From: Streptomyces sp. NBC_01750
GTDB lineage: Bacteria > Actinomycetota > Actinomycetes > Streptomycetales > Streptomycetaceae
Assembly: GCF_035918095.1 (NCBI RefSeq)
Contig: NZ_CP109137.1
Coordinates: 3,102,001-3,166,000, forward strand
Direction of reading: 5' to 3'
Length of the DNA: 64,000 bases
In this document: piece after piece, positions 43,774 to 57,298 of the stretch
Layout: each line of letters starts with the position of its first letter
How positions within the stretch are numbered: position 1 is the first letter of the stretch
Notes under the pieces: model-generated
Databases searched by the model: none
Told to the model about the DNA's origin: nothing
What the model saw: the letters and a program-made list of their open reading frames with translations, nothing else
Program-made: the position numbers and the translations under genes

Positions 43774-45171
43774 TCACGACGGCTGGAAGCCGCCGACCTG
43801 GGGCATGTCCCCGACCACTGCGAGCTTCCCGGCGGTCAGCTCTACGCTGCCTGTTCCGGTGGGGCCGGTTGCGCTGCCAGGCAGGACCCACACCGCGCCG
43901 CGGTAGCTGTCCTCGCCCTCCGCGCCGATGATCACATCAGGACGACCGTCGGCCCTGACGTCGCCGACCGCGAGCGTGAGACCGAACCCGTCGCCCGGTT
44001 CCGACACCCCGGGAACCGACGCGGTCTCCTGCGAGAGCTGGTACGAGCCGGCGCCGGGCGTGCCGGTCCTCGTACCGGGGATGATGACGACGGCTCCGGC
44101 ACGCCCCTTGCCGTTCTGCGTCTGTCCGGGCACGCCGACGACGATGTCGCCGACACCGTCCTTGTTCAGATCTGCGACGGCCAGGGCGGTGCCGAAACGG
44201 TTGTACTTCACCGACGTGCCGACGACGCCGGCAGTGTCCTGGCTGATCCGCACCGGTGTTGCCGCCAGACCGCTCTCACCGCCGTACCAGACAGTGATCT
44301 GACCGCCCTTGTGGCCGTAGGTGCCACTGATCGGTTCGTCGGGGTCGCCGACAACCAGGTCGTTGTAGCCGTCGCCGTTGACATCCCCGGTGGCGGTGGT
44401 CGTGCCGTCAATGGGCAGCGGGGTGCTGGGGCTTGTGGGCTCGACATACACGAGGCCGCCGCTGTGGCCACCGACCCGGACGGAGGTGATGACCCGCGCC
44501 GCCCGTCCGTCGTCGCGCACCAGGTAGTCGGTGACGGCGACCGAGGGTGTGCCCCAGTGTGGCGTCTTCGTGCTGACGGAGCCGTCGCGTGCGAAGGCGC
44601 CGCTGAACTCGATCGATCCGGCGTAGCCGCCGACCAGGACACGCGCGCCACCGCTGTCGCGCACTGCGGCGACATCCAGGCCGTACCGGCCGCCCTTGGT
44701 CAACGTCACCGGCAGCGCGCTTGCCGCGGCCAAGCCGTTCTTGCCACCCCACAGGATGGTGACTGCGCCGGCGTCCAGGGCGCTGCCGAGGTCCTCGTCG
44801 GGCGCTCCGACGACCAGGTCGCTGTAGCCGTCCTGGTCGAGATCGGCGAACGCCGTCGAGGCGCCGAAGAGGTCTTGGGCCTCCGCGGCGTCCGGCACAC
44901 CGGCGGTGTTCTGTGTGATGACGGCCTTGCGCAGGGTGGACACCCCGGTCCTGGAGCCGTAGAGGACGACGACCGCCCCCGCGCCGTCCATGCCTCCCAC
45001 CTTGGCCGTGGGCGCCGGGACAACCAGGTCCTGGTAGCCGTCCCCGTTGAAATCCGCCGGCGCGGCAATGGGCTTCGCCACGGCCACGGCAGGCATGACG
45101 ACCGAGCCCGTCACAGCGGCGCAAGCCACGGCAACTGCGGTCGCCAACCTGGTTCTTCCTGTCTTCCCCAC
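43774..45171 (-). CDS. Secreted FG-GAP (integrin-alpha-like) beta-propeller protein
   Basis: A 465-residue exported protein. After a signal peptide (TRLATAVAVACAAVTGSVVM, cleavage near AVAKPIA) come about seven propeller blades. At least five carry DxDxDGxxD-like calcium loops: DFNGDGYQDLVV, DLDQDGYSDLVVGAP, DVNGDGYNDLVVGDP, DLNKDGVGDIVVGVP and DVRADGRPDVIIGAE. The fold suggests extracellular calcium-dependent binding, not a known reaction. The start is GTG at 45171, because AGGAGGGG lies seven bases upstream; an upstream ATG-like start lacks one. It lies at the left of a block of large exported proteins. Confidence 0.87.
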   Translation of the reverse strand: MGKTGRTRLATAVAVACAAVTGSVVMPAVAVAKPIAAPADFNGDGYQDLVVPAPTAKVGGMDGAGAVVVLYGSRTGVSTLRKAVITQNTAGVPDAAEAQDLFGASTAFADLDQDGYSDLVVGAPDEDLGSALDAGAVTILWGGKNGLAAASALPVTLTKGGRYGLDVAAVRDSGGARVLVGGYAGSIEFSGAFARDGSVSTKTPHWGTPSVAVTDYLVRDDGRAARVITSVRVGGHSGGLVYVEPTSPSTPLPIDGTTTATGDVNGDGYNDLVVGDPDEPISGTYGHKGGQITVWYGGESGLAATPVRISQDTAGVVGTSVKYNRFGTALAVADLNKDGVGDIVVGVPGQTQNGKGRAGAVVIIPGTRTGTPGAGSYQLSQETASVPGVSEPGDGFGLTLAVGDVRADGRPDVIIGAEGEDSYRGAVWVLPGSATGPTGTGSVELTAGKLAVVGDMPQVGGFQPS

Positions 45172-46104
45172 CCTGTTTCCCCTCCTGATGCGCAGTGAGA
45201 CAGCAGGAGCGTACGACTCCACCCGCCGCTGCTGCAGCACGAGGTCCGGCGGATTCGCCTCACCGGTTCCGGACGCCGACAGTCACACTCAGCGCGGCTT
45301 CTGTCGCGCCGACCCACCCCCTTCTCGGGCACGAGCGGCACTGAACCCAGACGGCAGACGAACGCGAGCTGAGCCATCGCCTGCAGACCAACGGCTCGGC
45401 GTCCCCGAAGGACTCTCCTTCCCGCGGGTACAGCACGGCGATGAGCACCCATGTTGTGGTGCAGAGGAGCAGATGGGTCATAACGCATCGCCCTGTCCGC
45501 CCCCACACCCGTCGCCCCCCAGGAGCCGTCAGCTGTTGCGTTTCCTGCTCAGCATCCCTTCACGCATCGGCCGTCCGGCCACGTCTTGTCGATCTTCCCC
45601 GGCCGACCTGGGATGGAGTCCAGCCACCTCCGGCGAGCCTGAAGCGCCGCTCGGCCGCCATCTCGGATTGCCGCACGCCGAGCTGTGCGTCACGGATCAA
45701 GTCGGGCAGCAGAGATCCAACGACCTCTCGGTGGTTCGGCGATGAGTGCCGAGCCCTCCAGGCCGCCCGAGGCGAGCCTCCAAGTGGGCAGCGGGCGGAA
45801 CCTCGACGTCCGCCGTGAACGGTTACGCATCGATGGCCGCACGCACCTGCGGAAGTCGCGCATGGCCAGGACCGGGAACACTGCTCTCTCACCTCGTTGA
45901 AGCTGTTGGCTAGTCCCATCAAACGGGCCGGGAGAAGAGCCCTCCAGCTTCCTCGTCTGCCTGGTCGGCACGATCTCGTGCCGCGGCAGGAAAGCTGGTC
46001 GGCCTGCAAGGCCTTCGGGGCCCTCGTGGAGCCGCGCCCCCGGCAGCGATACTGCAGGGGCGCGGACGGATTCGCCAAGTCACGGCCGGGTGACACGCAT
46101 GTCC
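45172..46104. other. Gene-poor stretch of 933 bases, possibly degraded coding DNA
   Basis: I find no supportable gene here. Only short overlapping open frames occur on both strands, without ribosome sites, signal sequences or recognisable motifs, and G/C bias at third positions is weak. It lies downstream of the Rhs/small-membrane-protein pair, where displaced toxin or immunity fragments often accumulate, but I could not recognise any. Confidence 0.5.
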
Positions 46105-46386
46105 TCAGTCACCGAACATAACGACTGTCTCGACGATGAGTCCGACGGAGCACAGCACTGCGACGACCGCTCCGACGAATCTGATCGTCCTCGGCCCAGC
46201 ACTGCCTGTGCCACCGAACATCACTCGGGTGATGAGGCGGAAGAATCCTTCTGCCGCTCCTCGGAAGTTGATCGCGAGCAAGACTCCCGCCAACCCGAAG
46301 AATACGTAGAAGACGATTGAGAGCACACTTCCATCGGATGAAACCCGGCCTTCTGCCAGGACATGGTCAGATATCGCGTTCAGCAA
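46105..46386 (-). CDS. Small two-helix membrane protein downstream of the Rhs gene (candidate immunity protein)
   Basis: A protein of about 93 residues if started at TTG 46386, or about 75 from a GTG further in (VLSIVFYVFF) that has GGAA just before it. Two strong membrane helices are visible: LSIVFYVFFGLAGVLLAINF and IRFVGAVVAVLCSVGLIVET. It begins 67 bases after the Rhs stop on the same strand and has no other neighbour. That position and its membrane nature fit an immunity protein for the Rhs C-terminal domain, but I recognise no family and the role is inferred only. Confidence 0.6.
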   Translation of the reverse strand: MLNAISDHVLAEGRVSSDGSVLSIVFYVFFGLAGVLLAINFRGAAEGFFRLITRVMFGGTGSAGPRTIRFVGAVVAVLCSVGLIVETVVMFGD

Positions 46387-46453
46387 GTCAGTGCCGCCAG
46401 ATCAGAGGTTTGTTTGGGATATTCGGGGACCTGCCAAGGCCGGCCCTCTCGAC

Positions 46454-49400
46454 CTACCAGGTGAACATCTTCCCGATGCGAGTGCCGTAGCTGCTCGTGA
46501 GGCCCGCTTCAAGGCCTGCCGCCGCACCGACGCTCACGGTTGTCGACCGTACCGCTTCTCCACGGTGGTTGGTCGCGCCGATGGACCTCTCATGACTGAG
46601 GTAGGCGCCCGGGCCCAACCCGGCCCCGAGGGTTCCTCCCCAGCCATCGCCCCGGAGTTGCTCGAAGTCCGTGGCGTTGCTGCCCATGAGACCGATGGTG
46701 GCGTTCGCGCCCACGGAGGGGGCTTCAAACCCCTTGGAGAAACTCACACCGTAGTCCGTCTTCCCATCCTGCCTCGTCGTACTCAGGAGGCAGACGCTCG
46801 CAGTAGCTCCCGCTCCGATGCCAAGCGAGCCACTCACGCAAATTCCCGTCGTATCGCCGGCCAGATAGGAGCCGACGACCTTGTCGACCTTGTCGCCGAC
46901 CCAGGTTTCCTTCGCATTCCCCCAGGCGTCGCTGAAGTTGCCCTGGAAGAGGTTGTCGAAGAATCCGGCCTTGTGAGTGTTCTTCTTTTCCTGCTTCTGC
47001 TTCTTGGTGCTGTGGGGCGGATCGATCTTGCCGGACGGCGGCGTCACCGTTTTGGTGACCGGGTCATAGCCGACCTCCTTCTGCACCTTGGAGGAGCAGT
47101 TGGCGAGATCGTATTCGCAGGAGTTCGGCTTCGATCCGATCTCAGTTCCGGTGGGGTCGGAGAACGTGACGGGGTTGTTGTTCCCGTAAACGTAGGGGTT
47201 GTATTGGCGCGGATCGTCCATGACAAGCAGCGGGTCGACCGAGATGAAACGGCCCAGCGCCAGGTCGTATTCACGTGCGCCGATGTGGACGAGGTCCGTC
47301 TCGGCATCGTTTGTGCCGCCAACGAACCCCTTCTCACCGACCCAGCCCGTGGGCTGGGTGCCGCGGGATCCGCCGAAGATGGTGCTCTTGCGGTGGGTGA
47401 CCGACTGGGTTGCGTCCGCGGTCACCTGGGTGGTGTTCGTGCCGTGGTGGTCGGCGAAGAGGAAGGTCAGCGCACCGCCGGTGCGCATGGCGATCACCTC
47501 ATCGCCTGCGCTGTAGTAGCGGGTTCCGGTGAGGGTTCCGCTCTTGCTCAGGCGCAGTTCATTGCCACCGGGGAGGTACAGGGTGGTGCCGGTGGAGTCT
47601 TTGCGGATCAGGCGCTTGCCCTCGGTGTCGTACAGGTAGCTGCTGACCTCGGCGCCTCCCTGGGTGACGGACTTGAGGTGCCCCTCGTCGTCCCAGGCAA
47701 GGGTCTGTTTAGCACCTGAACCGATCGTGCGAGTCGCGGTGTTGCCGCTCTGGTCGTAGGTGTAGGTCTCGTCGTGCCCGTCGGTGCCGGTCTGGGTGAC
47801 CTTGGTCAGATCGTGCTTTCCCGCGGTGGGCGCGGCGTAGGTGCGGACCGTGTCGGCGGAGGGTCCGGATGCGGTCTTGTGCTGGGTTTCGGTCTTGCGG
47901 TTGCCGAGCGTGTCGTAGGTGTACGTCGTCCAGTAGGCGTCCGGGCCGCCGACGCTGGTCTCCGAGGGTTGAGCAGCGCAATCTGCCTTCGCGGTCCATG
48001 CTTCGGTGATCCGGCGCAGGGTGTCCAGCGTGAAGCACTGGGTATCGGTGGTGCGGGCAGCATCCTGGCCGTACGAGGTGGAGACCGAGGTGATGTTGCC
48101 GACCGCGTCGTAGCCGTAGTGCGCGTCCTCGATGCGCTGCGGTGCGGTGTCCCGGTCGAGGTAAGTGTCGGTCAGCGCGTTGGTGTGTTCGTCATAGGTG
48201 TTCGAGACCGTCAGGCTCTGACCGAAGGCCCCGTATTTCTGGATGGTGTTACGGCCGTAGTGGTCGTACGTGCTCTCGGAGACGAGCGGGTCGGTTCCGG
48301 CGCCGACCGTCTTCAGCAGGCCTATGACAGGGCTGTAGGTGTTGGTGACCTTCTCCGCCGGCAGTCCTCCCATGGCCGGATGCTGGGTCCATAGCACCTG
48401 GCCGGTGTTGAGGTTGTAAGAGGTCGTCCACTTGTACGTGTTGGCCAGCGCCCCCTCCGAGTCGGGGATGGTGATCTGGGTGCCGACCGGCTGGTAGAGG
48501 CTGTTGTACGACGTGATGGCGGATACGTAGGCCTTGCCGCCGATAAAGCGAGTGGACTTTGACAGTTGGCCCTTGGACACGGTGTCGTACTCCCACGACG
48601 ACAAGGTCGTGGTGCCCTTCTTCAGAGCGATACGGCGGCCGAGCGCGTCGTAGTCGGTGTGCAGGGTGACGCCCGCGTTGGTGGTGTCGGTGGCCCGGTC
48701 GCCGTTGTCATAGGTGGTCTTCGAGGTGCCCTTGTCCGGGTCATCGGCCTGGATTTGGCGACCGCGGACGTCATACGTATAGGTCCACTTCGCACCGGAG
48801 GGATCAGTGACCTGGTCCAGGCGGCCGTGCTTGTTGTAGCGGTACAGCGTGGACTGCGAGGAGCTGCGGGCCGAGTCGGTGTATTCCATCAGCTCGGTCT
48901 TACGGCCGAGCGCGTCGCTGACGGTCATGGTTGCGGTGCCGCCCGTCGGCGGGATCACGGTGGTGGTGTCGCCGGTATAGCTGGTGGTGGTGCGTTTGGT
49001 CTCGTCGCCGAACTTCTTGGAGATCACCGCCGTGGTGCGACCGGCTCCGTCGAATTCTGTGTCTGTGGAGGCGGGGTACTTCAGCTCCTGGCCGGTGACC
49101 AGCACCGGCTCTGCCGCGCCCGAGGCGTAGTACGTGCCTGACGTACGCCAGACCTGACCGCGGGTGTCGTAGAAGTTCTCCGACACCAGGCGTCCGGAGC
49201 GGTCGGGTGACTCCTCCTGGGTCTGACGTGCACGCAGCAGACCGTCGTAGAAGGCGTAGCTGGCCTTGTACTTCGCATCGTGGGTCAGGGTCTGAGTGGT
49301 GACGACGATCGGTCCGTTGTTGCGGACGAGGTAGTCGAAGACGTAGTTCGGCGAGTCGGGATAGGTGACGGCCGAACGGGTCGGCAGCCAGACCTTGATC

Positions 49401-52400
49401 ACCCGGCCGAGCGGATCATAGGCGGTGGCGGTGACCTTTGTGTTGGAGTCGGAGACCTGGACCGGCTGGCTGCGCAGCGGATCCAGCGTGGTCTTCACGG
49501 CAAGGCCCAGGGGTTTGGTGACCAGCGTCTGGGTGGGCACCTCACCGGTGACGGGCGTATAGGCGGTGGTGGTCACCTGGCCGTACGCGTCCGCCGTGGA
49601 CAGGGCGCGGCCGTAGACGTCGAAGTCGGCGACCGGCGTGGAAGAGACGACGTCGTAGCCGTCCCCGCTGCCGTTGATCCTGTCGGTTTTGGTGACATTG
49701 CCCTTCGACGGTGCAGCCCCGAGGACTCCGCCGTCGTAGTACGTGCGCACATCGTCGATCACATCGCCGGGACGGCTCACCGCACTGCCGCACGGAACCG
49801 CAACCGTCTCGGTACGGGAGACCTTGTCCAGCAGCCAGCTCGTAGTGTCGCGGGCGTAGCTGGTGGTGGTGCACTTCTCGTCGCCGCTCTTGCTGGTATC
49901 ACCGGTGTCGGTTTCGCCGGTGATCATGCCGTATGCGTCGAAGCTGCGCGTCACTCGAGTCGTACGCACCCCGCCGGTCACGGCAGTCCGCTTCTCTTCC
50001 TGCCCGGTGCCGGTCTGATACGCCTCCAGGTCTGGCAGTCCGGTGCGGGAGCGCGTCGCGGTGACTGCGGAGCGCCAAGGGGTGTACGAGGTGGCGGATA
50101 CCAGCTTGGAGGTGTCGTCGCCGTTGTACGTCGCCTCCTCACGCACCTTGCCTGCGAACTCCTCGCGATCGGTGACCACGGCCCCGGTGGAGTCCTTGAC
50201 GTCCTGGCCGTCGATGCCGCGGAAGTAGCGGGTCTCGGACAGCGTCTTGGGATCGGAGGCCGCACCGGTGCGGGTCTGGACTCGCTCGTAGCCACGGGCG
50301 ACTGAGTAGGTTCGGTCCTCCGCCTTGGTGAACTCATCCGTGTTCTTTATCCAGGCTGCCCCACCCGGGTAGGAGTAGGAACTCACCTTGTCCGGGGACT
50401 CCACCAGGTTGTCGCCCTCGGTGACCTCGGTGACCACATAGGAGTTGAACCAGTCCTGCTTGGCCGTCTCACCCTCGAAGGCCCACTTCACCGGGTAGCA
50501 GCGGGTGGTGTTCGTAACGTCCGCCGGCGGCAGCGTGGTGGCGGTGCAATCCGGTTGTGAGTATTTGACCCCGATGGTACCGCCGGTCTCCGTAGTGATC
50601 TGATACACCCGCAGCCGGACGAATGGCGCCAACCCGTCACCGAGCGCATCAACCCGGTTGGCCTTCTGCTCACCGGCGAAGGTCACCGGCGGCAGGGCCG
50701 CGGTGCCGTCCGCCTTGCCCGTCCGGGTAATCGACTTCAGCCACATCGGAGTGGAAATGCCGTCGCCCGAGGCCGGGAAGTCCTGGGCCAGCGACCAGGT
50801 ATCAACGTCCTTGTACGCGCCACCAGTCAGCACCTTCGTCGTGATGGCGGTCAGGCGCTTACGCGACCAGAAGCTGGGCGAGTACTTGTCCTTGCACTCC
50901 GCTCCGTCCTTGCACAGCAGGTCGTACGGAGTGTCCGGCCAGTTCTTGGCGTTGGTCTCGTCGAACGTGCCACAGGTGGTCAGGCATCGCTCGTCCACGC
51001 CGAAATGGACCTGGCCCATCGCCTTGACCGAGTAGACCGAGTCGGAACGCAGCCCGTAGTCGATGTGGTCGAGCCAGCCGCCGCGGATGTAGGGGGTTGC
51101 CGTGGAGTTGCCGGTGGTCTCCGACACGTTGCGGCCGTAGTTGTTCCCTTCTGTCTTCCAGTAGTACGACATGGCATCGCCATGTACATCGACGACGTAG
51201 TCCAGTTGCCAGCGCCAGGCCTGCTGGCACCAGCCGGAGGCGAACGAGGCGTCGTAGCACGGCTCACCGGACTGGTTGCCGAACACCGGCACCGTCCAGG
51301 CCGAGTTGGTGGTCGGGGTGGTGGAGTCCTTCCACCCAGGCAGCCGGTTCAGACCGAAGAAGTACTGCGTGCCATCAGTCGTGGTGATCTTCCAATGCTC
51401 ACCGTTGTTGTCCCCATTGGTCGCACCGGTCAGCTTCTCGACCTTCTCGCCTGAATCAGTGGCCGGGTGCCAGCCCTTTGCCGCGTCGTGAACCAGTTCG
51501 GTGTTCTTGCCACCGAGGGAGAGGGTGGCATTGTCGTTGTACCAGCACAGGTCACCCACCTTGGTGGTGTTCGTACCGCCGGTCTTGTCGTCGTTGCACC
51601 CCTTGTAGCGGCGCTCGATGTAGCCCGGCTCCCACGACCAGCCATCACCCAGCCACGACGGCTGATTGTTCGACGCCGCCGTACGACCGTCCACCGCCTG
51701 CGAGGAGTAGCCCAGTGACACTGTTGGCTGAAGATCGCCCGGGACCGTGGGAACGGCGACGGGATACGACCAGTTGAAAGAGCCGTTCGCGCCGCCCGCG
51801 GTCCACGATCCGGATGGCTGAAGTGAGGTGGCCTTGTAGTCGCCCGTCGGGCCTGCGGCCCCCGCTGTGGCCGCCAGCACCGTTGCACCTGCAGGTGCCG
51901 CGCTGCGCCCCGTTGCAGCCGGGGCACCGGCCACGCTGACGGCTGCCGACAGCTTGCCCTTCTTGATGTCGTTCTTCGTGGCCAACGGCTTACCGATACG
52001 GCACTTGGCCTGCTCCGGCGTCGTCAACGCACATGCCGGAAGTTGCACCAGCCGCGACCGGGACGCCCAGTCACCGCCGTACGCTCCCCGGAACGACGAG
52101 TAATCCACCTCGACGCGGGCAGAACCGGCCTTCGCCACACCGTCCGCACGGCCCACCGACAGCAGCAGCCCCTCAACCCCTGCCTTGCGCGCCGCATCCC
52201 GGCCCGCCACCGACACCTTCACCTTGCCCAGGGCCTCCCCCGCTGCACGGGTCTTGCCGGGCACCACCGCGACAGCCACCGGCAGCTTTCCCGCGCGCGT
52301 GGCAGCCCCGGCACCGGCCGGAGCAACCTCGGCAGCCCCGGGCGCAGGCCAGCCGACCTTCGGCGCGGCCTTCCAGGAGTGGGCCGCCGCCGCGTCGGGT

Positions 52401-52573
52401 CTCCTGGTGCCACCCACCTTCACCCTTTCGACCGGCACCGCTTTCGGTTGTTTCAACTTTGGAAGCGGAATTCTTCCATCCGAATTGACGGCCACAGCCG
52501 TCGCCGGCAGCACCCCCACCATGACCGCTGCAGCCAAAGCTGCCGCCAGTCCACGCATGCCGAAACGACTCAC
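46454..52573 (-). CDS. Giant secreted Rhs/YD-repeat protein with variable C-terminal (putative toxin) domain
   Basis: A 2039-residue exported protein. A signal peptide (MRGLAAALAAAVMVGVLPAT) is followed by an N-terminal region typical of secreted actinobacterial Rhs proteins (PGDLQPTVSLGYSSQAVDGR, then SWLGDGWSWEPGYIERRYKG), many YD repeats, and the hallmark core end GRFISVDPLL..DDPRQYNPYVYG with NNPVTFSDPTG ending near residue 1809. The last 230 residues are unlike the core: a Lys-rich linker, then Gly-rich sequence (SVGANATIGLMGSNATDFEQ). In Rhs systems this tip is the toxin released from the YD shell. The GTG at 52573 has AAGGGG six bases upstream. The adjacent small membrane protein may be immunity. 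Export is by Sec, not VgrG/type VI. Confidence 0.88.
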   Translation of the reverse strand: MSRFGMRGLAAALAAAVMVGVLPATAVAVNSDGRIPLPKLKQPKAVPVERVKVGGTRRPDAAAAHSWKAAPKVGWPAPGAAEVAPAGAGAATRAGKLPVAVAVVPGKTRAAGEALGKVKVSVAGRDAARKAGVEGLLLSVGRADGVAKAGSARVEVDYSSFRGAYGGDWASRSRLVQLPACALTTPEQAKCRIGKPLATKNDIKKGKLSAAVSVAGAPAATGRSAAPAGATVLAATAGAAGPTGDYKATSLQPSGSWTAGGANGSFNWSYPVAVPTVPGDLQPTVSLGYSSQAVDGRTAASNNQPSWLGDGWSWEPGYIERRYKGCNDDKTGGTNTTKVGDLCWYNDNATLSLGGKNTELVHDAAKGWHPATDSGEKVEKLTGATNGDNNGEHWKITTTDGTQYFFGLNRLPGWKDSTTPTTNSAWTVPVFGNQSGEPCYDASFASGWCQQAWRWQLDYVVDVHGDAMSYYWKTEGNNYGRNVSETTGNSTATPYIRGGWLDHIDYGLRSDSVYSVKAMGQVHFGVDERCLTTCGTFDETNAKNWPDTPYDLLCKDGAECKDKYSPSFWSRKRLTAITTKVLTGGAYKDVDTWSLAQDFPASGDGISTPMWLKSITRTGKADGTAALPPVTFAGEQKANRVDALGDGLAPFVRLRVYQITTETGGTIGVKYSQPDCTATTLPPADVTNTTRCYPVKWAFEGETAKQDWFNSYVVTEVTEGDNLVESPDKVSSYSYPGGAAWIKNTDEFTKAEDRTYSVARGYERVQTRTGAASDPKTLSETRYFRGIDGQDVKDSTGAVVTDREEFAGKVREEATYNGDDTSKLVSATSYTPWRSAVTATRSRTGLPDLEAYQTGTGQEEKRTAVTGGVRTTRVTRSFDAYGMITGETDTGDTSKSGDEKCTTTSYARDTTSWLLDKVSRTETVAVPCGSAVSRPGDVIDDVRTYYDGGVLGAAPSKGNVTKTDRINGSGDGYDVVSSTPVADFDVYGRALSTADAYGQVTTTAYTPVTGEVPTQTLVTKPLGLAVKTTLDPLRSQPVQVSDSNTKVTATAYDPLGRVIKVWLPTRSAVTYPDSPNYVFDYLVRNNGPIVVTTQTLTHDAKYKASYAFYDGLLRARQTQEESPDRSGRLVSENFYDTRGQVWRTSGTYYASGAAEPVLVTGQELKYPASTDTEFDGAGRTTAVISKKFGDETKRTTTSYTGDTTTVIPPTGGTATMTVSDALGRKTELMEYTDSARSSSQSTLYRYNKHGRLDQVTDPSGAKWTYTYDVRGRQIQADDPDKGTSKTTYDNGDRATDTTNAGVTLHTDYDALGRRIALKKGTTTLSSWEYDTVSKGQLSKSTRFIGGKAYVSAITSYNSLYQPVGTQITIPDSEGALANTYKWTTSYNLNTGQVLWTQHPAMGGLPAEKVTNTYSPVIGLLKTVGAGTDPLVSESTYDHYGRNTIQKYGAFGQSLTVSNTYDEHTNALTDTYLDRDTAPQRIEDAHYGYDAVGNITSVSTSYGQDAARTTDTQCFTLDTLRRITEAWTAKADCAAQPSETSVGGPDAYWTTYTYDTLGNRKTETQHKTASGPSADTVRTYAAPTAGKHDLTKVTQTGTDGHDETYTYDQSGNTATRTIGSGAKQTLAWDDEGHLKSVTQGGAEVSSYLYDTEGKRLIRKDSTGTTLYLPGGNELRLSKSGTLTGTRYYSAGDEVIAMRTGGALTFLFADHHGTNTTQVTADATQSVTHRKSTIFGGSRGTQPTGWVGEKGFVGGTNDAETDLVHIGAREYDLALGRFISVDPLLVMDDPRQYNPYVYGNNNPVTFSDPTGTEIGSKPNSCEYDLANCSSKVQKEVGYDPVTKTVTPPSGKIDPPHSTKKQKQEKKNTHKAGFFDNLFQGNFSDAWGNAKETWVGDKVDKVVGSYLAGDTTGICVSGSLGIGAGATASVCLLSTTRQDGKTDYGVSFSKGFEAPSVGANATIGLMGSNATDFEQLRGDGWGGTLGAGLGPGAYLSHERSIGATNHRGEAVRSTTVSVGAAAGLEAGLTSSYGTRIGKMFTW

Positions 52574-52900
52574 GCCCCACCCCTTGAGCAAATCCAAAAA
52601 GACCGCCGAAGGCTAGCAGGGGGAAACTATGAAGGGGGCAACTTTCTTCAGGAGCCCCGCGAACCACAGAAAGGGCTTGGATAGGGCACGCTCGACAACT
52701 GTCCAGCATCACGCCTGGGTCACCACAGAGTGGCAGGTCACGGCCGTCCCGCAAATCGGCATGAACACCCCACTCACGGCAAGATCACCTAGATACCGAA
52801 ATGCGGGGCAACCGCCACGCCGGACTCCAAATGGATTCCCCTTGCCCCCCTGCACATATATAGAGTCGCCGCGAATACCTGACACACAAAGGATGGTGCG
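52574..52900. promoter_or_regulatory. Divergent promoter region between the Rhs and lectin/FG-GAP genes
   Basis: These 327 bases separate two divergent giant secreted-protein genes and contain no supportable gene. The DNA is more AT-rich than its surroundings. Near 52855-52863 a CATATATAGAG segment, with TTGCCC about 13 bases upstream, could be a promoter for the rightward gene. Confidence 0.4.
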
Positions 52901-55900
52901 GTGCATACGTCAACAAGTGACGGCTTGCCCGGAAGACCGTGGCTGACGCGCGCGATATCAGTTGCTTTGGTGGGCGGAATTGCAGCTTCCGTATTGGTGG
53001 TATCGCCTGCCTCCGCTGCGCCTGTTCGGGCCACTTCGGCCGTATCCGCGGATCCAGTGGCGGACGGCTCGAAGAGCGAGGAGGACTACGCACTCGAACA
53101 GGCCGCAGCCACCAGCCAGCCCTTCGAGCTGACCTCGGCCCGCACCGAGTCCACCGACACGTGGGCCCTGCCCGACGGAACGTGGTCGGTCAAGCGGTAC
53201 GGCACGCCGGTGCGGATGCTGCGGGGCGGAGCGTGGATCGCCACCGACCCGACGCTGGCGTTCGCCACCGACGGCACCGTGGTGCCGAAGGCGTCCACCG
53301 TGTCGGTGGCGTTCTCCGGTGGTGGAAGCGGGCCGTTGCTGTCCGGCGTCAAGGACGGCCGGACGCTTTCCCTTTCGTGGCCGAAGCCGCTTCCCAAGCC
53401 CACGCTGAGCGAGAACGTGGCCACCTATGCCGACGTGCTGCCCGGGGTGGACCTGCAGCTGAAGGCCGAGGTCGAGGGCTTCTCCCAGCTGCTGGTGGTC
53501 AAGACCGCCCAGGCCGCCGCGAACCCCGAACTCACCTCGCTGAAGTACAAGTTGGACACCGTCGGCGTGTCCGTGTCCACGGATGCGGAGACCGGCAGTG
53601 TCACCGCCGTCAACCCGGCTGGCGAGACCGTGTTCACCAGCCCCTCCCCGCTGATGTGGGACTCCACCTCCATTACCTCAGGTGGTGCCGCTCCGGCGGC
53701 ACGGACCGCTCTGACCGCGGGCGAGGGGGAGACGCCCACGGACGCCTTCGAGCCCGCGCCGGGTGCGCAGGACGCCCAGATGCCCACCACCGTTTCCGGT
53801 GACACGCTGGAGATCAAGCCCGACCAGGCGCTGCTCACCGGTGCAGACACCAAGTACCCGGTCTTCATCGACCCCTCCTGGGCCTGGGGCAAGCGGCAGA
53901 ACTGGACCCGCGTCTACAAGAAGTACCCCAACACCTCCTTCTGGAACACCAAGGAGGTCGTCCGGGTCGGCTACGAGAACGAGACCAACGGCCTGTCCCG
54001 GTCCTTCTTCCAGCTGGACACGTCCAACATCAAGGGCGCCCAGGTCAAGACCTCTACCTTCCGGATCAAGAACACCTGGTCCTGGTCGTGCCAGGACCGG
54101 CCCGTGGAGCTGTGGCACGTCGGCGCAATTTCCTCCAAGACCACCTGGAACAAGCAGCCCGCCAAGTACTCCAGGCTCTACACCGTCGACGACGCCAAGG
54201 GCTGGAGCAAGGACTGCGCCGCAGGCAATCTCGAGTTCGACGCCACCGCCAAGGTCCGCGAGGCCGCGTCGAAGAACTGGTCCAGCCTCAACCTCGGCCT
54301 GTACGCCTCCGATGAGACCGACACGTTCGGCTGGAAGAAGTTCGACGCCAAGACCGCGGTCCTGGAGACCACATACAACAACCCGCCCAAGACGCCCAGC
54401 GGCCTGGGCACCAACCCGAAGAGCGACTGCAAGACCGGCGGGGCAATCGGCAACACCCGCGTGAGCGTCTACGCGAAGATCGATGACAAGGACGCCGGCA
54501 ATCTGAGTGCCGAATTCCAGATCTTCAAGACCGGCGCCACCACGCCAACGGTGACAAAGTCCATCCCGGCCGCCAAGGGCAAGGTCGCCACGTACGTGGT
54601 CCCCGACAGCGACCTGCCCACCGACAGCTATACCTGGAAGGTCCGCGCGAAGGACCAGGACGGCGCCTACTCCGCGTGGTCCGCCACATGCAAGTTCTCT
54701 GTCGACCGGACCCGGCCCAGCCAGCCCCCGGTCATCAGTTCCGTGGAGTTCCCCAACGGTGAGAACGGCTGGCCGGCCACCACCGGCAAGGCCCGCACTC
54801 CCGGCAGTTTCACCTTCACTCCCAACGGCGTCACCGACGCCGTCGAATACGGCTGGTACACGGACTTCAACCCCCAGGTGAACCACATCACCGTCGCTGC
54901 AGGGGGTACCGCCACTGACACCTTCAAGCCACCGAGTTACGGTCCGCACTTCGTCTATGCCTTCAGCGTCGACAAGGCGGGCAACCGGTCGGATACCGCC
55001 ACCTACATCTACTACGCCGGCCGCTCACTGGACCGTGACGGACCGACCGACCTCAACGGCGACACCATCAGTGACATCTGGAGCGTCGACTCCAACGGCA
55101 CTCTGCTGACTTACGCCGGCCAGGGCAACGGTGACTTTGCCTCAGCCACCAACGGCGGCAAGTCCTTCGAAGGAAATCAGGTCGACTCCCGCGGCGACTG
55201 GGGCCAGGACGGCTACAACGACCTCGTCTCCCTCGAGTACGACGGCATCGACAAGACCAAGAAGCTCTGGACGTACCCCAACAACGGCACCGGAGTCATC
55301 CGCGACGAATACACCCAGCTCACCGTCGCCTGCCCCGTGAAGGACCCGGAGACCGGCTGCGACTACGGCGACGAATGGACCGGCGACGACCACTGGCACA
55401 ACGCCGAACAGATCGTCACCCCCGGCGACCTCAATGGCGATACCCAGCCCGACGTGCTGGTCAAGCAGGGGAAGCAGTTGTGGGCGTACTACGGCAACCG
55501 CGCCGGCTACACCCTCGACACCATTCGCGAACCCGTCCTCGTGGGCGGCGGAGACTGGGACAAGTTCAGCGTCATCGCCCCTGGCGACCTCAACGGCGAC
55601 ACCATCGCCGACCTGTGGCTGCGCGACAACGCCACCGGCGACATCCTGCGCTCGTACGGCAAGAAGGGCCCCGACGGCCGGCTCGACCCCACCACCTGGG
55701 GCAACACGAGCAGTCGGGTGAAGATCGGCTCCGGATACCCCGCCGCCGTGTTCCCGGCCATGGGCTCCGTGGGCGACGTCACCGGCGACGGCATCGCAGA
55801 CCTGTGGGCCCGTAAGACCGACAACACCATGATCGGTTGGCCCGGCAAGGTCACCGACACGGTCTTCTCGTTCGGCCCCTACTTCGCGGTCGACGGCGCT

Positions 55901-57298
55901 TCGGGCGGCGCCCGAATCCCGGCCGGAACCACGCTGACCGCTGGCCAGTCGTACACCTCCCGCTCGGCCAAGCTCACCATGAAGGACGACGGCAACCTGG
56001 AAGTCACCTCCAACGCCGGCAAGCCGCTGTGGTCCACCGGAACCTCCGGCAACACCGGGGCGAAGGCCGTCATGCAGTCCAACGGCAACCTCGTGGTCTA
56101 CAAGGCCGACGGCAGCACTGTGCTGTGGGAGTCCAAGACCAGCGCAGCCGACGGCTACGCCCTCCTCCAGGACCGCGGCAACCTGATCGTCTACAACGCC
56201 AAGGGCCAGTCCCTGTGGTCCAGCGGGACCGTAACCCGGCACGATTACAACGCCGACGGCCGCAGCGACATGGGGCTCTGGTACGACTTCAGCGCGGGAA
56301 GCGACGCCACCTACACGCTGCTCACCAACTCGGACGGGTCGTTCAAGGACCCGTTGAAATCCTTCACGGCGGCGATCGGGGCGTGGGACGCGAACAGCAT
56401 GAAGTTCGTGACCGGCGACTTCAACGGCGACGGCCGCGGTGACCTGGCGGCGCTGTACGGGTACAGCGACACCAGCATCAAGCTGTGGACCGCCTTCGGT
56501 AAGGCCGACGGCGGCTTCAACACGCCCTTCGAATCCTGGAGTTCCCCGCCCGGCCGGATGCACACCAGCTATATGACGCCGCAGGCGGGTGACTTCAACG
56601 GCGACGGCCGCGACGACATCGCGGTCTGGTACGCCTACCCGGACGGCACCACCAAGCTGTGGACATTCACCGCCGCCGTCACGGGCAAGTTCAATGCGCC
56701 CTTCGACACCTGGTCCGCTCCCAGCGGCACTTGGTCCCGGGCCCGCACCAAGTTCGTGACCGGCGACTTCAACGCCGACGGCCGCGACGACCTCGGCGTC
56801 TTCTACGGCCAGGGAGACAACTCGGTGAAGACCTACGCCTTCCGCACCACGCCGGCTGGAGGCTTTGCGGCACCGGAGGTGTGGTGGGAGAGCGCTGCCC
56901 TCGACTGGAATCGCTCCACGCCGCACGCCGGAGACTTCAACGGCGACGGCCGCGATGACGCCATGATCTGGTACGACTACCCCGACGGCAGCGACAAGGT
57001 CTCCACCATTCTCTCCACCACGGTGGACGGCAAGAACCAGTTCGGCTCCGCCTTTGTCACCCTTGCCAGCGCTGCCGGCAACTGGGACATCAAACGCAGC
57101 CAGCTCGTCATCGGTGACTACAACGGTGACGGCCGCGACGACATCGGCGCCATGCACCATCTGTCGGACGGGTCCGTGAAGACATGGACCTGGACCGCCA
57201 GGCCCGACGCCCTGTTCAACGGTGGGCTGGCCGGCTACACCGCCCTCGCCACCCAGTGGGTGTACGCCTCCACCAGGTTCTTCAAGCCCTACAACTGA
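52901..57298 (+). CDS. Giant secreted DNRLRE / FG-GAP / bulb-type lectin protein
   Basis: A 1465-residue exported protein. The signal peptide ends near VVSPASAAPV (about residue 40). A beta-rich N-terminal region of the type that accompanies Rhs genes leads to a DNRLRE-like domain (about 326-496), an Ig-like region, FG-GAP/VCBS repeats (about 716-976), a bulb-type mannose-lectin domain (about 1003-1111, with QSNGNLVVYKADG and QDRGNLIVYNAKG) and more FG-GAP repeats with DFNGDGRDDI loops (about 1113-1426). It looks like a calcium-stabilised adhesin or carbohydrate-binding shell protein. The start is GTG at 52901 with AAGGA upstream. It is divergent from the Rhs gene. No catalytic motif was found. 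Confidence 0.88.
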   Translation: MHTSTSDGLPGRPWLTRAISVALVGGIAASVLVVSPASAAPVRATSAVSADPVADGSKSEEDYALEQAAATSQPFELTSARTESTDTWALPDGTWSVKRYGTPVRMLRGGAWIATDPTLAFATDGTVVPKASTVSVAFSGGGSGPLLSGVKDGRTLSLSWPKPLPKPTLSENVATYADVLPGVDLQLKAEVEGFSQLLVVKTAQAAANPELTSLKYKLDTVGVSVSTDAETGSVTAVNPAGETVFTSPSPLMWDSTSITSGGAAPAARTALTAGEGETPTDAFEPAPGAQDAQMPTTVSGDTLEIKPDQALLTGADTKYPVFIDPSWAWGKRQNWTRVYKKYPNTSFWNTKEVVRVGYENETNGLSRSFFQLDTSNIKGAQVKTSTFRIKNTWSWSCQDRPVELWHVGAISSKTTWNKQPAKYSRLYTVDDAKGWSKDCAAGNLEFDATAKVREAASKNWSSLNLGLYASDETDTFGWKKFDAKTAVLETTYNNPPKTPSGLGTNPKSDCKTGGAIGNTRVSVYAKIDDKDAGNLSAEFQIFKTGATTPTVTKSIPAAKGKVATYVVPDSDLPTDSYTWKVRAKDQDGAYSAWSATCKFSVDRTRPSQPPVISSVEFPNGENGWPATTGKARTPGSFTFTPNGVTDAVEYGWYTDFNPQVNHITVAAGGTATDTFKPPSYGPHFVYAFSVDKAGNRSDTATYIYYAGRSLDRDGPTDLNGDTISDIWSVDSNGTLLTYAGQGNGDFASATNGGKSFEGNQVDSRGDWGQDGYNDLVSLEYDGIDKTKKLWTYPNNGTGVIRDEYTQLTVACPVKDPETGCDYGDEWTGDDHWHNAEQIVTPGDLNGDTQPDVLVKQGKQLWAYYGNRAGYTLDTIREPVLVGGGDWDKFSVIAPGDLNGDTIADLWLRDNATGDILRSYGKKGPDGRLDPTTWGNTSSRVKIGSGYPAAVFPAMGSVGDVTGDGIADLWARKTDNTMIGWPGKVTDTVFSFGPYFAVDGASGGARIPAGTTLTAGQSYTSRSAKLTMKDDGNLEVTSNAGKPLWSTGTSGNTGAKAVMQSNGNLVVYKADGSTVLWESKTSAADGYALLQDRGNLIVYNAKGQSLWSSGTVTRHDYNADGRSDMGLWYDFSAGSDATYTLLTNSDGSFKDPLKSFTAAIGAWDANSMKFVTGDFNGDGRGDLAALYGYSDTSIKLWTAFGKADGGFNTPFESWSSPPGRMHTSYMTPQAGDFNGDGRDDIAVWYAYPDGTTKLWTFTAAVTGKFNAPFDTWSAPSGTWSRARTKFVTGDFNADGRDDLGVFYGQGDNSVKTYAFRTTPAGGFAAPEVWWESAALDWNRSTPHAGDFNGDGRDDAMIWYDYPDGSDKVSTILSTTVDGKNQFGSAFVTLASAAGNWDIKRSQLVIGDYNGDGRDDIGAMHHLSDGSVKTWTWTARPDALFNGGLAGYTALATQWVYASTRFFKPYN

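Follow-up and report, generated by a model that had tools for sequence, protein, structure and literature searches.

The reverse strand of a 64,000-nucleotide stretch of Streptomyces sp. NBC_01750 (contig NZ_CP109137.1, positions 3,102,001 to 3,166,000; hereafter the window) carries a gene for a large Rhs (YD-repeat) protein and, directly behind it, a gene for a small protein with two hydrophobic segments. The Rhs open reading frame (ORF) contains RHS repeats (PF05593, E 1.4e-10, Pfam) and a Rhs-associated core at residues 1752-1817 (TIGR03696, E 2.8e-16, NCBIfam), both above the cut-offs, so that the shell ends in a conserved core ahead of its C-terminal tip, as in Rhs polymorphic toxin-immunity systems. 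Judged by eye, the N-terminus reads as a putative Sec signal peptide; the database copy of the protein (P0004) is annotated 47 residues shorter, omitting 52457-52597, and the apparent signal peptide is thereby lost. An in-frame GTG at 52573 lies eight codons downstream of the TTG start. Counted from that GTG, the core ends at SDPTG near residue 1809 with 230 residues after it, exactly as given in a previous reading of this DNA made from its letters and ORFs (the sequence-only reading), whose description of an Rhs protein with an unrecognised C-terminus and an adjoining two-helix protein is confirmed by the ORFs, the PF05593 and TIGR03696 matches and the two hydrophobic segments. The features are listed in Table 1.

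Table 1. Coordinates of the Rhs locus in the window, and of the same tip on short carriers (in the numbering of each locus).
Feature	Position	Strand	Basis or remark
Rhs (YD-repeat) protein ORF, 2047 aa from first TTG	46454..52597	-	2039 aa if from the in-frame GTG at 52573; identical database protein P0004
N-terminal stretch, residues 1-36, ending ATAVA, apparent Sec signal peptide	52490..52597	-	by eye
SDPTG, end of Rhs core, residues 1813-1817	47147..47161	-	Rhs_assc_core match ends at 1817
Variable stretch joining core to tip (the junction), residues 1818-1914	46856..47146	-	alignment with relatives
Tip domain, 133 aa, residues 1915-2047, Gly-rich barrel with predicted Vap fold, proposed toxin	46457..46855	-	homologue alignment, structure models
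SNATDFEQL, most conserved tip motif, containing the short helix that separates strand blocks two and three	46655..46681	-	tip alignments, model
Gap of 67 bases from Rhs stop to small gene	46387..46453	-
Small gene, 93 aa, two hydrophobic segments, product proposed to be a membrane immunity protein	46105..46386	-
Tip on short WXG100/PPE-like carriers	L037:1661-2863, L038:678-1895, L048:679-1989

The C-terminus proved unfamiliar to profile libraries, as the sequence-only reading had found it: the 233-residue C-terminal piece has no match in Pfam or NCBIfam at E ≤ 1, and the same is true of the 93-residue protein. With residues 1800-2047 as the query, 23 database proteins were recovered, comprising one identical protein, 17 that share the last ~133 residues, and five that share the junction and have other ends. 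In the alignment, a conserved Gly-rich block spans DTTGIC to MFTW and is preceded by a variable junction. The last 230 residues, previously taken as one distinct piece, do hold a conserved tip, but it measures 133 residues and the preceding ~97 are junction. The 17 same-tip relatives are 47-67% identical to the window protein in the core and 49-73% in the tip. The junction is recognisable in two of these 17 and in all five relatives with other C-termini (51-76% identity in those five); by sequence, the window junction groups with proteins bearing other tips. Across the 17 loci with a core segment, core and tip similarity are correlated at a rho of 0.17, a value matched by 286 of 2000 permutations. 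Because the same tip sits on diverged cores and the same junction leads to other C-termini, these alignments indicate that the tip is a domain of its own that has moved among cores. The sequence-only reading would have been undermined by a tip conserved with its core across Streptomyces, and this is not what we found. GC content at third codon positions drops from 0.842 in the core to 0.759 in the tip and 0.670 in the two-segment gene, in line with a module of separate origin.

The small gene is linked to the tip. We scored an ORF of 55-130 aa with two hydrophobic segments, no more than 300 nt from the tip, and found one at 27 of the 30 distinct tips recovered by a motif pattern; the pattern missed one tip, L049, which also has a two-segment ORF. 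Random window positions satisfied the same rule in 106 of 4000 cases, and none of seven other Rhs loci of the same genome (one of them a fragment) did. Absence or lack of linkage of the membrane gene beside this tip, the other outcome that would have told against the sequence-only reading, is confined to three of the 30 tips. Tip and small gene also vary together: their similarity matrices are correlated (Spearman 0.58, reached in 0 of 2000 permutations, 28 loci). Matrix correlation does not remove shared ancestry, for which the core serves as the control; at the 17 loci with a core segment the tip-partner correlation is 0.59, while core-partner (0.15, 312 of 2000 permutations) and core-tip do not stand out. 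The 1.5 kb behind tips gave 41 two-segment ORFs, of which 37 have at least one relative among the others (phmmer, E ≤ 1e-3, a weak bar for so small a set). The 93-residue protein found no relative when used as the query in a protein search, its relatives having come through the tip loci. The 93-aa ORF nevertheless looks like a real gene, since relatives sit behind other tips and the 9-Mb genome has a single clear member of the family, beside the tip (E 5.2e-24; next 0.35). At L025, a tip locus with no small gene, the next ORF encodes a 253-aa protein with a strongly hydrophobic segment.

Further features of the arrangement emerged when up to 1.5 kb of DNA downstream of the tip was scanned at each of 34 loci (less at some). 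Two or three related genes with two predicted transmembrane (TM) segments stand in tandem at seven of them (L015, L016, L018, L028, L044, L050, L072). Some of the extra genes resemble, by sequence, the partners of different tip types: the second gene of L028 is closest to the partner of L043 (E 1.4e-37), and the third gene of L044 to that of L014 (about 1e-20). The second gene of L018 has its closest match in the L016 partner (about 1e-24). In genome G204 a first Rhs frame, open for 1198 aa, has a tip and partner of its own, and behind it lies a core fragment with a second tip-partner cassette. A 2-TM ORF is retained beside broken tips at L033/L055, L052/L056 and L053/L057. Judged from their arrangement, the arrays, second cassettes and ORFs beside broken tips would be marks of immunity genes.

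Structure prediction of the tip, which had been proposed as a check, yielded a Vap-type barrel. In two models, of the window tip and of a divergent tip, the domain is most probably an eight-stranded Gly-rich beta-barrel of the fold of the Vap virulence proteins of the foal pathogen Rhodococcus equi, a barrel topology described as unusual or even unique (PMC4089522; PMC4118825). The conserved loop motifs of the tip sit at one end of the predicted barrel. This predicted fold, for a mobile toxin tip with a dedicated membrane-partner family, is what the present analysis adds to the sequence-only reading. Other searches gave no name to the pair: Pfam, NCBIfam, PADLOC and PHROGs held no usable match for the tip or the small protein, three tip profiles run against PDB sequences recovered no relative (a single chance row at E 0.17), and a viral structure library had no match. 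Low-scoring hits to Glyco_hydro_42C, TMEM43, Ysc84 and DUF3925, each on one member, were dropped, as was ser_rich_anae_1 (six of 22 tips, best E 0.08). No library model covers the pair, which upholds the earlier suggestion that it is new; against that suggestion, numerous Streptomyces genomes carry the family, and the fold predicted for it is already known.

The tip is carried by Rhs proteins and, at four distinct loci (L017/L037, L019/L038, L020/L039, L048), by shorter proteins whose N-terminus is of the WXG100/PPE type. Two of these short carriers have Pfam matches below the cut-offs (WXG100, E 0.0073; PPE, E 9e-4), and the other two were assigned by eye; in L039 the N-terminal part and the tip are in different frames. 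At least nine short proteins with the tip domain occur among the matches listed. Exchange of a C-terminal tip between Rhs cores and WXG-like proteins, together with a downstream partner gene that covaries with the tip and forms arrays, is the pattern of polymorphic toxins. Besides the Sec-Rhs route, the tip would probably have a route of the ESX or type VII secretion system (T7SS) kind, by way of the short carriers. Of the 30 tips, 27 have a pair of Cys in the first strand block; L019, L020 and L048, which lack it, all sit on WXG100/PPE-like carriers, and L017, on such a carrier, has the pair. Streptomyces genomes with a match to a 12-tip profile number 17 of 392. For a 22-tip profile the figures are 13 of 394 in the family and three of 394 in the class, and for a divergent 21-tip profile two of 60 in the order and nine of 386 in the phylum at E ≤ 0.01; these samples overlap, G000 and G516 occurring in several. 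Every named one (15 of 17) of the tip-bearing database homologues is from Streptomyces. The nine phylum matches include two known tip genomes, and among six loci read, those of G437 (itself a profile row), G1240 and G1269 are tip-like; G511, G1402 and G540 were rejected as tip loci on reading. The C-termini of L076 (G1240, E 1.4e-7) and L079 (G1269, E 0.0024) are distant, tip-like and outside the family; that of L079 is Gly-rich with Trp, as in Vaps, and its next ORF encodes 126 aa and is soluble-looking.

Both large ORFs flanking the locus, 43774-45240 (-) and 52901-57298 (+), encode FG-GAP-repeat proteins (Pfam), the 1465-aa flanking protein also having a B_lectin match. The small gene had been called the only gene behind the Rhs gene; it does lie 67 bases away on the same strand, and the refinement is that the next same-strand ORF with a Pfam match is the FG-GAP-repeat gene at 43774-45240. 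The genome has at least seven further Rhs/YD loci (L061-L067) with other C-termini, and the ORFs found within 300 nt behind them have no hydrophobic segment.

Taken together, the mobility of the tip and the linkage of the membrane gene to it support the earlier reading of a toxin-immunity pair, and we regard the tip and the small protein as such a pair with high confidence. From the membrane partner and the Vap fold we infer that the toxin acts on membranes. VapA is reported to permeabilise liposomes and collapse proton gradients (PMC10100859), an activity that core-VapA is reported to retain (PMC11703076), and the mechanism of the leakage is described as still open (PMC10100859). Rhs and contact-dependent inhibition (CDI) systems are reported to include membrane-depolarising tips (PMC9637101, PMC11630599). 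Closest in layout is Tse5/Tsi5 of Pseudomonas aeruginosa, for which an Rhs shell is likewise described, with a C-terminal toxin that acts on membranes and an immunity protein predicted to have two transmembrane regions (PMC9637101); Tse5, however, is delivered by a type VI secretion system in a Gram-negative bacterium, and the window tip is a predicted beta-barrel. Given VapA permeabilisation, depolarising Rhs and CDI tips and a two-TM immunity protein like Tsi5, the simplest reading is a permeabilising barrel with its immunity protein in the membrane. We therefore favour, as a likely account, a polymorphic toxin-immunity module in which a Sec-exported Rhs/YD shell would carry an exchangeable, membrane-acting tip of the Vap fold. 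The barrel would act on the cytoplasmic membrane of the target cell, and by analogy it is reasonably likely to permeabilise it, most likely with collapse of its proton or ion gradient, the effect that VapA has on membranes; the two-helix protein, in the producer's membrane, would block the cognate barrel.

The window system also resembles WapA-type Gram-positive YD-repeat toxins in its secreted YD shell, variable C-terminal toxin and adjacent immunity gene, whereas WapA tips are known as nucleases with soluble immunity proteins and the window partner is a membrane protein. WapA is among the toxins named in PMC12169545. The R. equi Vaps (VapA/B/D/G; PF05526) share the predicted fold with the tip and have no sequence match to it; they are small stand-alone secreted proteins (150-206 aa), whereas the domain in the window forms the C-terminal end of a 2047-aa Rhs protein and has a membrane partner of its own, and the Cys pair of 27 of the 30 tips is a further difference.

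Several observations weigh against this account. On the side of the partner, three of the 30 tips (L025, L036, L054) and the distant tips L076 and L079 lack the small membrane ORF, and for four of the 41 two-segment ORFs, including the partner nearest to the L021 tip, the set contains no recognisable relative. On the side of the fold, the best Foldseek E-values of the two models are modest (2.6e-3 and 1.6e-2), and identity to Vaps in the structure alignments is 6-13%, at which the resemblance may or may not reflect common descent. At the level of strand blocks and helix, the layout of the models would be compatible with the Vap strand order 1-2-3-8-5-6-7-4. PF05526 (R_equi_Vir) exceeded its cut-off in none of 150 Streptomyces genomes (three sub-cut-off fragments), was absent from the window's own genome at E ≤ 0.1 and was not among the families listed for 22 tips; among PDB sequences, the tip profiles matched no Vap chain. 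The Trp that Vaps typically have at the C-terminus is partly kept: 25 of the 30 tips have a W among their final 30 residues, and 13 have TW.

Instead of permeabilising, the barrel might bind a lipid, an envelope component or a membrane enzyme, a target that the 2-TM protein would shield. Detergent binds to a flat, Gly-rich surface on VapD, and the authors of that work proposed lipid binding (PMC4118825), and the clustering of conserved loop motifs at one end of the barrel would suit a binding site; VapA, however, permeabilises liposomes with the same fold (PMC10100859, as reported there), and we consider this alternative unlikely. Somewhat less probable again is that toxin and immunity protein do act in the membrane as kin of the Ntox25 and Tse4 "tapered beta-barrel" ionophores, the likeness to Vaps being shared architecture or all three forming one superfamily. 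The domains of Ntox25 (CdiA type 14) are reported to disrupt the membrane potential; they have been modelled as a tapered beta-barrel, and Tse4 is said to resemble them (PMC11630599). Against such kinship, none of 22 tips has a listed match to Ntox25 (PF15530) at E ≤ 10, and FGPY, the motif given for Ntox25 (PMC3482391), is in none of the 30 tips; both of these comparisons with Ntox25 are of sequence. PF15530 also had no match in 199 Streptomyces genomes, a result to be read with the control genomes, which likewise gave none. The tip may work like a Vap or like an Ntox25 ionophore, and we claim membership in neither family. Finally, a non-toxic adhesion or anchoring module on the cell surface would accord with the neighbouring FG-GAP-repeat genes, and toxicity of the tip is itself an inference, but exchange of the tip among carriers, the presence of several membrane paralogues similar to foreign partners, and the persistence of membrane ORFs next to broken tips are expected of immunity and not of an anchor, which makes this very improbable.

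We found no previous report linking the Vap fold to polymorphic toxin tips in the open-access literature, most subscription papers lying outside that scope. We tentatively suggest, somewhat short of holding it probable, that the Vap fold is that of a large family, as yet without a library model, of interbacterial membrane toxins with membrane immunity. On this view, tips of this kind would have been the ancestors of the R. equi Vaps and of Vap-like genes found here and there in other phyla; released from the carrier, they would in R. equi have come to target the phagosome membrane, and Ntox25 and Tse4 would possibly be a further branch. The function of Vap-like genes outside R. equi was undetermined as of 2014 (PMC4118825). 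If the favoured module is correct, many Streptomyces genomes would encode interbacterial toxins of the Vap fold, each with a specific membrane immunity protein, and these would offer a diverse natural set for mechanistic work that could use harmless bacteria. They would also provide a possible evolutionary source of the R. equi virulence family, and would extend the tips of Gram-positive Rhs and WXG-type polymorphic toxins by a class that acts on membranes.
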